This document shows, piece by piece, positions 18,334 to 22,835 of a stretch of 22,835 nt of DNA; the stretch's first letter is position 1; each line of letters begins with the position of its first letter. Both the position numbers and the translations under genes were made by a program. The stretch is from a virus. Location of the stretch: the IMG/VR virus record IMGVR_UViG_3300031705_000055, positions 1 through 22,835 of that record; one strand, 5' to 3'. A model generated the notes under the pieces. That model was not told the DNA's origin. It was given only the letters and a program-made list of their open reading frames with translations, and did not search any database.

Positions 18334-18552
18334 ATGAACGAAAAAGGAAGAGGCTGGATACCTCAAACAAAACTACAAGTGTTATTCTTTAGCACTTACA
18401 CAACGAAGAAAGCAGCAAGTGTAAACATGGGGGTTACAGTTACAACCCTCCGCTTGTTGTTTGGTAGAGAAGATAGATTCACTTACAGCCAACTTAAACA
18501 ACTATCAAAAGATAGTGATGTAAAACTAACAGACATAATCAAACTAATATGA
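18334..18552 (+). CDS. Small HTH (Cro/CI-like) putative regulator
   Basis: 72 aa from ATG 18334, one base after the preceding stop; an in-frame ATG at 18289 would overlap the previous gene. The region TKLQVLFFSTYTTKKAASVNMGVTVTTLRLLFGREDRFTYSQLKQLSKDSDVKLTDIIKLI reads as a compact five-helix XRE-type domain, with KAASVNMGVTVTTLRLLF as the helix-turn-helix. A repressor or activator of the nearby TTAG promoters is possible. Stop overlaps the next ATG as ATGA. Confidence 0.6.
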   Translation: MNEKGRGWIPQTKLQVLFFSTYTTKKAASVNMGVTVTTLRLLFGREDRFTYSQLKQLSKDSDVKLTDIIKLI

Positions 18553-19025
18553 AAGATCAATATTTTGAAAAGCTAATTACGCATTCAGCAAAGATAAACA
18601 AAACATTTGCAGGTGCTTTACTAGATAAGGGAAGACAACAGTTTGACGTTGAGTCAAGAAATATGTGTTACAATGTATTAAGAAAATTGAATTGGAGTTT
18701 GCCGGACATTGGCAATAGATTCAATAGAGGTCATGCTACTGTTATACACGGGATTAAGAACCATGATATTGCTTATGCGAGAGGTGGGTACTATATGAAC
18801 AACTATGATGACTTAGTCATAAGAATGGCTGACAATACAGAGATGGAAAAGATTGAAAACACTAACTACATCGAAAAGAATAGAATCAAGTTCGAGTTAC
18901 TAGAAGATTCAAACGTAAAGCTAAAGGAAGAGCTATTCGATATTAAAAAAACAACAAGGCTTTTATTACGATCAATCAAAGAACAACAATCATTAACCAA
19001 TTTATTAAACAAATCATGCAGTTAA
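18549..19025 (+). CDS. Stand-alone DnaA domain IV-like DNA-binding protein
   Basis: 158 aa. Residues 34-72 (VESRNMCYNVLRKLNWSLPDIGNRFNRGHATVIHGIKNHD) match the DnaA C-terminal DNA-binding domain: the 'SlpeIGxxFgxRxHtTVxhaixkI' core is seen as SLPDIGNRFNRGHATVIHGIKNH. No AAA+ domain, so it cannot be a full DnaA. The C-terminal half (about 100-158) is a charged coiled coil, probably for oligomerisation. It lies upstream of the replication initiator, and may bind origin or promoter DNA. Coupled to the HTH gene by ATGA and overlapping the next gene by ten bases. Confidence 0.75.
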   Translation: MKDQYFEKLITHSAKINKTFAGALLDKGRQQFDVESRNMCYNVLRKLNWSLPDIGNRFNRGHATVIHGIKNHDIAYARGGYYMNNYDDLVIRMADNTEMEKIENTNYIEKNRIKFELLEDSNVKLKEELFDIKKTTRLLLRSIKEQQSLTNLLNKSCS

Positions 19026-19345
19026 AAGGAACAGTTATCGAGATTAAGGAAGTACAAGTTATTTCTGACAAGTTTAAGAAGCAAGAGGTTATTCTTAAAC
19101 AGGAGGGTGTAGAGTATGACGCTGACATTCCTATCGAGTTTATACAGGATAAAGGCATAGAACTTGTGAATGGCTTAAAAGTAGGTCAGTCGTACGAAAT
19201 AGACATTAATATAAGCGGTAGAGCTTGGAAGGATCGTTACTTCGTCAGCTTGAAAGGTTGGAAGGTTGCAGAAGCATCTGAATCTACTGAATCCACAAGA
19301 AGAGCAATAGCTGCAGATGATGGAGCTGATGCCTTCCCCTATTAA
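19016..19345 (+). CDS. DUF3127 SSB-like OB-fold protein
   Basis: 109 aa. The N-terminal 80 residues show the DUF3127 pattern: GTVIEIKEVQVISDKFKKQEVILKQEGVEYDADIPIEFIQDKGIEL, then YEIDINISGRAWKDRYFVSLKGWKVAE. This is a small OB fold found in Bacteroidota phages and hosts, considered an ssDNA-binding type. The tail ends in acidic/aromatic residues (DDGADAFPY) resembling the protein-interaction tail of SSB. It would coat ssDNA in replication or recombination. Ends 33 bases before a strong terminator. Confidence 0.75.
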   Translation: MQLKGTVIEIKEVQVISDKFKKQEVILKQEGVEYDADIPIEFIQDKGIELVNGLKVGQSYEIDINISGRAWKDRYFVSLKGWKVAEASESTESTRRAIAADDGADAFPY

Positions 19346-19378
19346 ACGAGTATTAGATATACTCAAATGGTTAAATTT

Positions 19379-19411
19379 GGAGGAGCTTTAAGTAGTTCCT
19401 CCTTTTTTTTT
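19379..19411 (+). terminator. Intrinsic terminator closing the early operon
   Basis: Stem ggaggagct (19379-19387) with agttcctcc (19394-19402), nine pairs with one G-T, loop ttaagt, then nine T (19403-19411). Very strong. It ends the operon running from the promoter at 17485. Confidence 0.92.
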
Positions 19412-19430
19412 ATACATATCAGTATAATTA

Positions 19431-19462
19431 TTAGTTTAATTAAATACTTATTTGTATATTCG
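19431..19462 (+). promoter_or_regulatory. TTAG-type promoter of short RNA 1
   Basis: TTAG (19431-19434), 20 bases, TATATTCG (19455-19462; six of eight match TAnnTTTG). The only thing downstream before a terminator is about 60 nt of non-coding sequence. Confidence 0.55.
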
Positions 19463-19467
19463 TCTAA

Positions 19468-19529
19468 CATAACTAAATTTTTAATACTACCACTAAAACC
19501 CTCATTGTCACGTGAGGGTTTTCTTTTTT
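19468..19529 (+). ncRNA. Candidate short RNA 1, promoter-to-terminator unit
   Basis: Expected transcript from the promoter at 19431-19462 to the terminator hairpin 19495-19522 with its T tail: about 60 nt. It contains no ORF of note. The start is an estimate, six to eight bases beyond the -7 box. It might be a regulatory RNA, or the remains of a decayed gene between promoter and terminator. Confidence 0.45.
19495..19529 (+). terminator. Perfect hairpin terminator
   Basis: Perfect ten-pair stem aaaaccctca (19495-19504) with tgagggtttt (19513-19522), eight-base loop containing tcacg, then cTTTTTT to 19529. Confidence 0.88.
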
Positions 19530-19538
19530 ACATTAACA

Positions 19539-19570
19539 TTAGATTATTTAATATATTATTTGTATATTGC
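19539..19570 (+). promoter_or_regulatory. TTAG-type promoter of short RNA 2 / initiator leader
   Basis: TTAG (19539-19542), 20 bases, TATATTGC (19563-19570). Shares the block ATTTGTATATT with the promoter at 19431. Transcription would enter the hairpin region 19576-19655 ahead of the replication initiator. Confidence 0.55.
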
Positions 19571-19575
19571 ACCCA

Positions 19576-19655
19576 TCGAGTAGAGGCGATACTTATAACA
19601 TTTTTACAAAAACCTATTTCAGCGAGCCCTCTACCTCCTGAGATAGGTTTTTTTT
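19576..19655 (+). ncRNA. Candidate short RNA 2 or attenuator leader of initiator gene
   Basis: About 80 nt between the promoter at 19539 and a terminator-like hairpin (19608-19655). GTAGAGG (19580-19586) is perfectly complementary to CCTCTAC (19628-19634) in the hairpin's loop, so the RNA could fold into a pseudoknot. Read-through beyond it would transcribe the initiator gene at 19674, so it could be a transcription attenuator; alternatively it is a free small RNA. Confidence 0.5.
19608..19655 (+). terminator. Long-loop terminator ahead of initiator gene
   Basis: Stem aaaaacctatttc (19608-19620) with gagataggttttt (19640-19652), thirteen pairs including one G-T, a 19-base loop and T to 19655. 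Ends 18 bases before ATG 19674, so the initiator depends on read-through here or on an unseen promoter. Confidence 0.8.
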
Positions 19656-19673
19656 ATACCAAATAGTTAAATT

Positions 19674-20480
19674 ATGAAAATCAAATCCGTATTAAGTCAG
19701 GGAGCGTTTTGGCAAATCAATAAGTCATTAGCTCAAAAGGTAGGTTTAGAGTCTGCTTTATTATTATCCGATCTTATAGATAGGGAATCTTATTTTGAGG
19801 GTAGAGATATGTTGATTAATATTAATGGTGAAGGTTATTTCTTTGTAACTAGTAAGCAGATAAGCGATGCAACTACGTTATCATATAGGAAACAAAAGAA
19901 GTGCATTGCAGTGCTTGAAGATGAAGGAATGATTAAGACTTTTTTGCGAGGTGTTCCTGCAAAACTACATTTTACTATATGCGAAAGCAAGATTTGGCAA
20001 AGTGTAAATACTAGTATTAGCGAAACGCTAAAACTAGATTTAGCGAAAACGCAAAACAAGAGTGAGCGAAACGCTAAAACTATTAATAATAATAAAGAAT
20101 TAATAATAAAGAATAATAATAAAGAACAATATAAAAAGGTTGAGAATTATTTTGACAATATTCTGATAGATAATTTATTTAAAGAATTTTTAATATTAAG
20201 AGTATCTTTAAAAGCTAAAAACACAGATAGGGCTGTAGGGCTTATATTAAAAAAATTAGAAGGACTATCTCCAGAACTACAAACGGAGATGCTAGAGCAA
20301 TCAATTGAGAACAGTTGGAAGAGTGTATTCCCTATTAAAAAACAATTCAACAAAGCAGAACCTACAAGCCTAAGCAAACACTACTTCCCTGATATGTTTA
20401 AAAAGGAAGAGAACCCTTTACCGATAGAAACAAAGATTCTAAGCACTGGAGATATGAACGACTTTTTTAGTAAACCATAA
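19674..20480 (+). CDS. Replication initiator protein (winged-helix type), contains origin
   Basis: 268 aa. The N-terminal domain (about 1-105: FWQINKSLAQKVGLESALLLSDLIDRESYF ... GEGYFFVTSKQISDATTLSYRKQKKCIAVLEDEGMIKTFLRGVPAKLHFTI) is the winged-helix domain of phage replication initiators and replisome organisers; the 'Q..l..L...GmI....rGvPak' end is typical. A low-complexity Lys/Asn linker (about 112-155) follows and contains, at DNA level, the iterons and AT-rich 13-mers of the proposed origin. The C-terminal part (about 156-268) is helical and might contact the helicase or its loader. Compare lambda O, where the origin also lies inside the initiator gene. Confidence 0.75.
   Translation: MKIKSVLSQGAFWQINKSLAQKVGLESALLLSDLIDRESYFEGRDMLININGEGYFFVTSKQISDATTLSYRKQKKCIAVLEDEGMIKTFLRGVPAKLHFTICESKIWQSVNTSISETLKLDLAKTQNKSERNAKTINNNKELIIKNNNKEQYKKVENYFDNILIDNLFKEFLILRVSLKAKNTDRAVGLILKKLEGLSPELQTEMLEQSIENSWKSVFPIKKQFNKAEPTSLSKHYFPDMFKKEENPLPIETKILSTGDMNDFFSKP
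20017..20084 (+). repeat. Three iteron-like repeats, 23-bp phasing
   Basis: AGCG cores begin at 20019, 20042 and 20065, exactly 23 bp apart. Copies 1 and 3 share 18 identical bases (AGCGAAACGCTAAAACTA); copy 2 is AGCGAAAACGCAAAACAA. The outer copies contain the inverted repeat TAGCG/AGCG-AAA-CGCTA. The three copies fall in three different reading frames of the initiator gene, so the repetition is not protein-driven. Probable initiator binding sites. Confidence 0.8.
20087..20126 (+). repeat. Three AT-rich 13-mers, candidate DNA unwinding element
   Basis: TAATAATAAAGAA occurs perfectly at 20087-20099, 20101-20113 and 20114-20126; spacings are 14 and 13 bases. Only three bases in 40 are G or C. 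They follow immediately after the iterons, giving the standard initiator-site plus unwinding-element order of a replication origin. Confidence 0.8.
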
Positions 20481-21384: not shown

Positions 21385-21725
21385 AATCAAAAGAAGATGA
21401 TTTACAGGTTGCAGTAGTTACCTACTTGAAGCTAAAATATAAAGCTCTTTACTGTGCTTCTTTAGGTGGTCAATACCAAAAGCACATATCTCAAAGAATG
21501 AAAGCTAAAAGAACTGGCTACGTTGCAGGATTCCCTGACCTATTCATTTACGAATCCAAAGGTGATTACAGCGGTTTAGCTATCGAATTAAAAGTAAAAG
21601 GTAACTATGCCTCACCTAAGCAAAAGGATTGGATAGAGAAGCTAAACGCTAGAGGGTATTCAGCTCATGTATGCACAGGCTTCGACAACGCAAAGGAAGT
21701 GATAGACAATTATTTTAATCAATAA
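21381..21725 (+). CDS. VRR-NUC domain nuclease
   Basis: 114 aa, one VRR-NUC domain of the PD-(D/E)XK type. Visible motifs: early E-xxLQ helix (residues 5-9), GYVAGFPDLFIY (46-57, active-site Asp53), LAIELKVKG (67-74, Glu69-Leu-Lys71), SPKQKDWIEKLNARGYSAHVCTGFDNAKEVIDNY (78-111, Gln81). Stand-alone VRR-NUC proteins in phages are thought to act as structure-specific endonucleases for branched DNA in replication or recombination. Spacing of the catalytic residues is normal, so the enzyme should be active. Last coding gene before a promoter at 21726 that overlaps its stop by nothing. Confidence 0.85.
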   Translation: MKSKEDDLQVAVVTYLKLKYKALYCASLGGQYQKHISQRMKAKRTGYVAGFPDLFIYESKGDYSGLAIELKVKGNYASPKQKDWIEKLNARGYSAHVCTGFDNAKEVIDNYFNQ

Positions 21726-21757
21726 TTAGTACATCTCGAAAATTAGAATTAAATTTA
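21726..21757 (+). promoter_or_regulatory. TTAG-type promoter ahead of structured region
   Basis: TTAG (21726-21729), 20 bases, TAAATTTA (21750-21757). The left half (ATTAGTACATCTC) equals that of the promoter at 16821; the right half (AATTAGAATTA, ATTTAC) equals that at 20483. Transcription would begin near 21763. Confidence 0.62.
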
Positions 21758-21761
21758 CGGA

Positions 21762-21917
21762 ATGAAACAGACAAACAGCAAAAGAGTAATGCCACCTATA
21801 CACAAACAAACAGCTTTCGAGCTTATGTTTGGCTGGAGTGGCACAATAGAAAAGGTAAGATTAAAACCATTGAAACTAGAGAAAGGAGCGTCTAGAGTTA
21901 ATGGCGTAAGGATTTAG
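21762..21917 (+). CDS. Small basic hypothetical ORF, possibly starting at 21789
   Basis: 51 aa if started at ATG 21762: MKQTNSKRVMPPIHKQTAFELMFGWSGTIEKVRLKPLKLEKGASRVNGVRI. The first ATG coincides with the predicted transcription start, leaving no leader, so an internal ATG at 21789 (42 aa) is the more likely start. It is basic, without a recognised domain. Coding status is moderate; it may be only the 5' part of a non-coding transcript. Confidence 0.4.
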   Translation: MKQTNSKRVMPPIHKQTAFELMFGWSGTIEKVRLKPLKLEKGASRVNGVRI

Positions 21918-22025
21918 AGGGGTTCTACTTGAGTGAATCAATAACTATTGAACGGCGTAACATTCGGGAGGGGATCTGTCAGATGTTGAGTGAAGTGAGT
22001 AAGCTACTAGAACGCTGCGAATTAG

Positions 22026-22046
22026 TTTAAACCATTGGGGTTTAAA
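22026..22046 (+). repeat. Perfect 8-bp inverted repeat (hairpin)
   Basis: tttaaacc (22026-22033) and ggtttaaa (22039-22046), loop attgg. Not followed by T, so not a terminator. Confidence 0.75.
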
Positions 22047-22053
22047 AGTCAGA

Positions 22054-22081
22054 GTTAGGGAGGGCGGGATTCCTCCCTAAC
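22054..22081 (+). repeat. Perfect 10-bp inverted repeat (strong hairpin)
   Basis: gttagggagg (22054-22063) and cctccctaac (22072-22081), loop gcgggatt. It is the most stable hairpin in the structured stretch and lies 27 bases before the GIY-YIG start codon. Confidence 0.8.
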
Positions 22082-22108
22082 CATGGACTAACTAAAAGTA
22101 ACGCAAAA

Positions 22109-22591
22109 ATGAAGAAATGTACGAAATGCAATATAGATAAAGACTTAATAGATTATCCTAAGCAATCTAGTAAAAAGTCAGGGTTAGCTTCTCAGTGTAA
22201 GAAATGTGATAATTTTAGAAATAGAATTTACCACCTATCTAACTTAGCAAAATCTAATATTAAAAGTAAAATATACCGAGATTCACTTAAAGAAAATGTT
22301 GTGTATAGAGTTTCAGTCGAAGGTAAAGGTTCTTATATTGGAAGTACGACTTGCGGACTACTAGCAAGGTTAGGACACCACAAAGGGTACTTATGTAGAG
22401 GTGAGCATAAAAACCATAAACTACAAGCCATATATAATAAGTTAGGCTGGGATGTGTTTAAATTCAAAGTCATAGAAATATTAGAATCGGATGTAGACCT
22501 AAAGGTTAGGGAGCAATACTATATTGATAACAATAAAGAGTCATTAAACATAGCAACGGCTAACAAAAAAACTAAAACAATACTAATCTAA
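22109..22591 (+). CDS. GIY-YIG endonuclease with Cys4 N-terminus
   Basis: 160 aa. An N-terminal zinc-ribbon-like unit with Cys4, Cys7, Cys30 and Cys33 (CTKC ... CKKC) is followed by a GIY-YIG domain (about 63-150): VYRV (65-68, in place of GIY), YIG (76-78), catalytic-type Arg87 in LLARLGHHKGYL, and Glu135 in VREQYYID, then LNIATA. Phage proteins of this type are usually homing endonucleases, either free-standing or in introns. The A-rich leader (aacgcaaaa) precedes the ATG. Being a likely mobile gene it may have been inserted between the small ORF and the next gene. Stop overlaps a hairpin. Confidence 0.8.
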   Translation: MKKCTKCNIDKDLIDYPKQSSKKSGLASQCKKCDNFRNRIYHLSNLAKSNIKSKIYRDSLKENVVYRVSVEGKGSYIGSTTCGLLARLGHHKGYLCRGEHKNHKLQAIYNKLGWDVFKFKVIEILESDVDLKVREQYYIDNNKESLNIATANKKTKTILI

Positions 22592-22613
22592 AGTAGTCGA
22601 ATTCGACCACTTT
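22590..22613 (+). terminator. Hairpin after GIY-YIG gene, weak terminator
   Basis: aaagtagtcg (22590-22599) with cgaccacttt (22604-22613), nine pairs and one A-C mismatch, loop aatt; nearly symmetric around gtcgaattcgac. It starts inside the stop codon and has no T run, so termination is doubtful. Confidence 0.45.
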
Positions 22614-22627
22614 AAAACAAGACTAAG

Positions 22628-22835
22628 ATGGAAGCACGAGAGATAGACCACATGCTTGAGCTAGGATACTGGATTCAGGTAAGTCCATTAGCTAATGCAG
22701 GTTCAGGTTGGATATGCGGAATATATAAACGAGGAAAGATTTCAGGCAACTGGATAACGGAAGTGTCTAAAAAGTTCGATAACCCGCTAGGTTGTTTTGA
22801 GTGGGCTGATAAAGAGATTGTTCAATTAATAAACA
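22628..22835 (+). CDS. Hypothetical protein, truncated at right edge
   Basis: ATG 22628; 69 residues visible before the window ends, no stop. MEAREIDHMLELGYWIQVSPLANAGSGWICGIYKRGKISGNWITEVSKKFDNPLGCFEWADKEIVQLIN. It is Trp/aromatic-rich, with no recognised domain; small early phage proteins with 'GYWxxvSPl...GWicgIYkxg' patterns exist without known function. Leader aaaacaagactaag precedes the start. Confidence 0.6.
   Translation, partial: MEAREIDHMLELGYWIQVSPLANAGSGWICGIYKRGKISGNWITEVSKKFDNPLGCFEWADKEIVQLIN

Follow-up and report, generated by a model that had tools for sequence, protein, structure and literature searches.

The window, that is, the whole stretch of DNA analysed here, is an IMG/VR virus record of 22,835 bases, and between its SSB-like gene and its O-like replication initiator gene lies a run of cassettes that carries no gene. 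This arrangement leads to the question of which RNAs are encoded immediately before the initiator and what they might do there. The initial annotation had described two gene-free promoter-terminator units in this stretch, at 19431-19529 and 19539-19655, preceded by a strong terminator; the coordinates of both units are correct on the sequence, and the terminator of the SSB-like gene, at 19379-19402, is real. The gene upstream, at 18549-19025, carries a DnaA C-terminal domain (PF08299). The features of the region are the following.

19016-19345, plus strand: SSB-like gene (phrog_4932, E 9e-22), 5' of the cassettes
19379-19411, plus strand: terminator 3' of the SSB-like gene, insulating the next transcription unit
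19431-19462, plus strand: promoter 1, TTAG-N20-TATATTCG, read from the sequence and compared with promoter 2
19466-19529, plus strand: unit 1 RNA body, with a putative start; terminator hairpin at 19495-19522 (11 pairs), T-rich to 19529
19539-19570, plus strand: promoter 2, TTAG-N20-TATATTGC, kept in all homologues
19575-19590, plus strand: unit 2 5' hairpin, AUCG[AGUAGAGG]CGAU, with kissing strand GUAGAGG at 19580-19586, based on covariation and position
19591-19609, plus strand: unit 2 A/U-rich linker, 17-21 nt among homologues
19610-19655, plus strand: unit 2 terminator, with the hairpin at 19610-19650, tip GAG[CCCUCUAC]CUC, kissing strand CCUCUAC at 19628-19634, and then Ts to 19655
19674-20480, plus strand: O-like replication initiator gene (phrog_678, E 7e-19), starting 18 nt past the T-run of unit 2

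The two promoters are built alike. Promoter 1 has TTAG at 19431-19434 and, after 20 nt, TATATT at 19455-19460, and promoter 2 has TTAG at 19539-19542 and, after the same 20 nt, TATATT at 19563-19568; other promoters of this phage are spaced in the same way, for example TTAG-N20-TATATTTG before 17539. The promoter consensus of Bacteroidota is TTTG / TAnnTTTG (PMC7366714), and TTAG-N20-TATATT, taken as -33 and -7 elements, fits its spacing with an imperfect sequence match, the -7 boxes in the window ending in CG and GC and not in TG, while exact TATATTTG is present in the homologues L032, L064, and L065. The units had been said to look like duplicated promoters with differing RNA bodies, and this agrees with the comparison of the two, in which the promoters are identical at 14/20 positions upstream plus 10/10 and the bodies at 15/50. 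Promoter 1 also resembles promoter 2 of the window and of the homologue L041, which fits the idea of a duplicated promoter. The word TTTGTATATT that both promoters have in common is present in two copies and nowhere else, but as many copies were found in 6 of 100 shuffles and by itself the word is weak evidence, not significant. When the folds were compared to dinucleotide shuffles, the z-scores were -3.7 for unit 1 and -5.2 for unit 2. Antisense control of the initiator start was rejected, as neither unit showed antisense pairing to it: the energies of -8.0 kcal/mol for unit 1 and -10.0 kcal/mol for unit 2 do not surpass in strength the medians for random segments, -8.7 and -13.9, respectively. 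None of the Bacteroidota-type minus-strand promoters listed lies inside 19346-19674, the opposite strand having been scanned only with a sigma-70-type model.

Unit 2 is almost certainly a real structured RNA element. Its relatives were gathered through the SSB-like and initiator genes and through DNA patterns, which yielded homologues in 13 other IMG/VR contigs and, with the window included, 9 distinct sequences, referred to here as family A; L077 was rejected as a homologue because its match was due to chance. Common to all versions are the promoter core TATATT, a 5' hairpin whose loop has 8 nt, an A/U-rich linker of 17-21 nt and a terminator hairpin with GAG-8 nt-CUC at its tip. The promoter and the terminator, the loss of either of which from related phages would according to the initial annotation have spoken against its proposal, are thus both kept in the relatives of unit 2. 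What the initial annotation overlooked is that the two loops of unit 2 are complementary to each other. In 9/9 versions 7 nt of the 5' hairpin loop are exactly complementary (7 bp) to the terminator loop, and this is so with four different kissing pairs, namely, GUAGAGG/CCUCUAC in the window, L059, and L046, GUGGACG/CGUCCAC in L024, L041, L030, and L064, GUGGUAG/CUACCAC in L032, where the 5' stem AUCG/CGAU is also replaced by GUUG/CAAC, and GUGGAAG/CUUCCAC in L065. In the alignment (A4) 100% of the cells of the scored pairs are paired, and 6 pairs changed on both sides, three of them in the kissing helix, two in the 5' stem and one in the terminator. None of 500 shuffles scored as high and slid controls gave at most 2 such pairs. 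All the wobbles (6/6 positions) are G-U and none is A-C, and therefore the plus-strand RNA appears to be the selected molecule. The earlier proposal of undescribed RNAs tied to the replication initiator has strong support for unit 2, given its homologues, covariation and conserved position, and less support for unit 1.

In 7/9 versions of family A the next gene is the initiator, and the T-run is separated from the start codon of the following gene by 5-26 nt; the genes that lie between the RNA and the initiator are an HNH-like gene in L032 and a 92-aa ORF in L046. The gap between the SSB-like and initiator genes houses differing genes in L004, L013, L032, and L046 (PAPS-reductase-like, HNH-like and the 92-aa ORF) and, as judged from these sequences, it is a small insertion hot spot among the relatives. 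The initiators of family A are of two N-terminal types (A2 and A3), and the RNA therefore goes with the position and not with a single protein family. No TAnnTTTG was found between the terminator and the start codon in family A or in families C and E described below, and in relatives without the RNA (L006/L019, L018, L028, and L085) TATATTTG or a close variant lies immediately before the initiator. The simplest reading is that the RNA is in the leader of the initiator transcript, in which case the initiator would be expressed by readthrough of the terminator. The kissing strands are 39-43 nt apart in family A, 46-47 nt in family C and 45 nt in family E. By our own estimate the kissing fold is a stacked rod of ~28 bp and ~80 angstroms, which a linker of 17-21 nt can span, and pairing within one molecule is therefore feasible.

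This design was found in other phages as well. When all collected loci were scanned for terminators whose loop complements the loop of an upstream hairpin, 16 kissing cases were obtained among 116 unique terminators compared to 2.2 expected when the upstream sequence was resampled; since 2.2 are expected by chance, single cases from the scan need caution. The scan recovered family A and further cases. Family B consists of four distant contigs (L048, L049, L051, and L052), whose SSB proteins are only 31-38% identical, and in its fold the 5' hairpin is longer and a further hairpin stands in the middle; the loop pairs, of 8 bp each, are GUAGUAAG/CUUACUAC, GUAGUGAG/CUCACUAC, GUCGAGAU/AUCUCGAC, and GUUGAGAG/CUCUCAAC. 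Its terminator lies a few nt 5' of an initiator-like gene that is followed by a helicase-like gene, the functions being read from the sequence. Ten pairs changed on both sides in family B, the unpaired cells being due to the L051 row, which is misaligned by ~2 columns in the loop. Cultured phages were reached by tblastn with the L052 initiator. Family C comprises 46 Flavobacterium phage records, including the cultured Lillamyvirus, Muminvirus, and Hattifnattvirus, with the RNA between a PF11325 gene and the replication genes; 3' of the RNA are a small gene and then initiator and primase genes or, in the mumin group, a small gene and then a helicase gene. The loops of family C are GUGAGACG/CGUCUCAC (lillamy), GUGAGAAG/CUUCUCAC (morran), and GUGGAACG/CGUUCCAC (mumin, snusmum, and mymlan), and 4 pairs changed on both sides. 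Family E is formed by the Cellulophaga phages phi19:1 and phi10:1, with loops GUACGAC/GUCGUAC, a GAG-8 nt-CUC tip as in family A and a weak T-run. A 135-nt RNA of three hairpins at L101:1840-1981, before an HTH initiator and with no clear promoter, has an 8-nt 5' loop that is fully complementary to the terminator loop, and as a single case it is only tentatively assigned to the same design. Overall the different loop pairs number 12; each of them is complementary and, inside a family, they are largely orthogonal. Cognate duplexes have energies of -8.0 to -11.7 kcal/mol and cross pairs are mostly weaker, one cross pair in family B being equal in strength to a cognate pair. The kissing RNA is absent from FpV9/FPSV-S2 and Porphyromonas phage 005b, which have a related initiator, and the scan of Bacteroides phage C3_41T2LP and of Lysinibacillus and Pseudomonas relatives gave zero kissing RNAs. 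Recurrence in at least three other phage groups indicates that the design is a general device of Bacteroidota phage replication modules.

Unit 1 differs from this, being by its sequence a plain terminator RNA without sign of conserved structure or function. It is found, with an identical body, only in near-identical relatives of the window and in L004/L055/L059, which form one lineage, and it is probably an accessory small RNA that came in together with a copy of the same promoter. In L004/L059/L030 a third cassette with its own promoter (unit 0, ~115 nt, with a T-run at its end) lies ahead of unit 1 or unit 2, and in L055 it also lies ahead of unit 1; L030 has units 0 and 2 without unit 1. 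The fold of unit 0 is no better than that of shuffles, and this cassette is limited to these lineages. The joints between cassettes fall in T-runs, and the cassettes were therefore seemingly gained and lost there by recombination. At ~19485-19491 unit 1 contains CUACCAC, the exact terminator-loop word of unit 2 in L032, which could be a coincidence or could serve as a decoy for loops of that type. In L024 and L041 an array of G-rich short repeats (GGGCATT / GGGCAATT / GCGGGTTTT) lies between the SSB terminator and unit 2 in place of unit 1, and these repeats are possibly origin iterons.

What can be read from the sequence of unit 2 are promoter and terminator signals, a conserved position, covarying stems and a covarying kissing helix, and no second promoter was seen. 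We infer that the RNA is made and that initiator mRNA arises by readthrough; the kissing would be mainly intramolecular and would reinforce or gate termination or make the RNA more stable. The best-supported explanation of unit 2, whose chances we put at about even, is that it is a terminated leader (attenuator) of the initiator operon, in which the kissing fold tunes termination and also yields a stable small RNA. Polymerase would start at promoter 2 and make an RNA of ~80 nt whose 5' hairpin folds first; when the terminator hairpin emerges, its loop would pair with that of the 5' hairpin (7 bp) to give a compact kissing-hairpin fold. Most transcripts would then end at the terminator as stable small RNA and the fraction that reads through would express the initiator. 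It supports this explanation that in all loci of families A and B the RNA is followed by the initiator, either directly or after an inserted gene. Against it, there is no competition between the kissing and the terminator stem, so that a route for switching is not evident from the structure, and the initiator could be transcribed from farther upstream if the phage overrides terminators; the imperfect -7 boxes in the window, the weak T-run of family E and the intervening gene in L032 and L046 also count against it. A classical antiterminator was rejected, as by eye there is zero upstream sequence matching the 5' arm of the terminator.

The loops could also act between molecules. In that case the loops of the free RNA would pair with transcripts of the same phage type, either the nascent leader or the readthrough mRNA, and the dose of RNA would set initiator expression in the manner of the antisense RNAs of plasmid copy control and phage P4 immunity. 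The identity of the loops would define compatibility groups. In favour of this reading, the loops are frequently replaced without losing their complementarity, nearly every cross pair is weaker than the cognate ones, and phages from the same Flavobacterium hosts have different loops. IsrK and the P4 CI RNA (PMC4825925) are precedents of terminated leaders that act on the transcript they come from, and in IncK plasmids loop changes set incompatibility (PMC10724649). However, proximity favours pairing within one molecule, and neutral compensatory drift could also vary the loops; we regard control in trans as possible but leaning to the doubtful. It is likewise doubtful that the paired loops are a recognition code by which Bacteroidota phages control their own initiator and possibly exclude or tolerate co-infecting relatives, the loops branching into types that are largely orthogonal in phages with a common host. 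If the loops do act in trans, this would be an RNA-based compatibility system between co-infecting phages.

Three further explanations were weighed. Unit 2 might be a small RNA in its own right with host or other phage targets, its site before the initiator being incidental, as its own promoter and terminator and the tandem cassettes with different bodies could suggest; this is unlikely, considering that the RNA always adjoins replication genes in four phage groups and has no conserved unpaired seed, its most variable part being the loop pair that is already used internally. Even less likely is an origin-linked element in which the transcript or a fold of single-strand DNA helps to start replication as a primer or by activation. 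The RNA does sit in the replication module beside SSB, DnaA-C-domain and initiator genes, but the wobbles are all G-U on one strand, promoter and T-run have both been retained, and we noticed no iterons in the gap of the window. That these are chance hairpins between genes is highly improbable: a scan this loose expects ~2 random matches, but the excess observed, the covariation in three families and the fixed position all argue against it. The chance reading is refuted for unit 2, while it may still apply to unit 1.

No known family accounts for unit 2. A search of the whole window against Rfam 15 gave no family at or above the gathering cut-off, permissive searches (window region, L004, L101, L137, and L049) gave sub-threshold matches or none, and no Rfam match was obtained for families A, B, and C and L101. 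A group I intron at 21650-22835 was rejected, there being no Rfam intron match; in that part of the window a gap of 383 bases (21726-22108) with a strong hairpin at 22053-22082 is followed by a GIY-YIG homing-endonuclease-like gene (22109-22591). ARAGORN gave no tRNA or tmRNA match. The terminator pattern, searched without a positive control in 84,980 host genomes, had 9 matches, of which 0/7 inspected had a 5' hairpin partner, and none was found by the scan used for the loci; among 399 genomes of one order, likewise without a positive control, model R1 matched none and model R2 matched two, both plain terminators without kissing. A nucleotide search with family A gave only short A/T-rich matches in phage records and none in plasmid records. 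The open literature yielded no paper describing such an RNA, subscription journals and preprints being outside the search, and we know of no earlier description in phages of a self-kissing terminated leader whose loop pair changes fast but is always complementary. The RNA has gone without annotation in dozens of cultured phages with sequenced genomes (Lillamyvirus, Muminvirus, Hattifnattvirus, and Cellulophaga phi19:1 and phi10:1), and its presence in them means that its role can be tested now in the laboratory.

Type III toxin-antitoxin RNAs are tandem pseudoknot repeats followed by a ToxN-type gene; unit 2 has a single copy of its fold, and the genes after it are replication genes. Plasmids are the classical setting for structured RNAs ahead of replication initiators. 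The pT181-type attenuators and the IncI/IncB/IncK leaders (RNAI kissing, ColIb-P9 repZ pseudoknot) are, like unit 2 as read here, structured initiator leaders, and in plasmid rep leaders loop-loop pairing controls expression and loop sequence sets specificity (PMC10724649 and its references). Loop-loop complementarity in a replication-initiator leader, which marks the pT181/IncI type, is present in unit 2; however, in the plasmid systems the loop pairs with a second, antisense RNA made from the opposite strand, whereas unit 2 carries both loops on a single RNA of the same strand, closed by a terminator. The P4 CI RNA is also derived from a leader and controls replication genes by transcription termination (described in PMC4825925), but it is processed from that leader and pairs with the separate sites seqA and seqC; complementary sites on both sides of the RNA are not found at unit 2, whose pair is inside the RNA itself. 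The lambda OOP RNA, which is 77 nt long and self-terminating, adjoins the gene for the O initiator (PMC3349717). It is transcribed away from O and is antisense to cII, whereas unit 2 runs toward the initiator on the same strand, is intergenic, overlaps no gene and is antisense to no neighbouring regulatory gene. The short IsrK RNA of the Gifsy-1 prophage has a terminator of its own, at which it stops, and a longer mRNA results from readthrough (PMC4825925); the layout of unit 2 would fit such a short terminated form with a readthrough mRNA. Compared by description, IsrK differs in that it activates translation of its readthrough mRNA and that no self-kissing loop pair is described for it. The kind of element is known from structured initiator leaders and phage small RNAs, while the self-kissing loop-terminator design of unit 2 appears to be new in phages.
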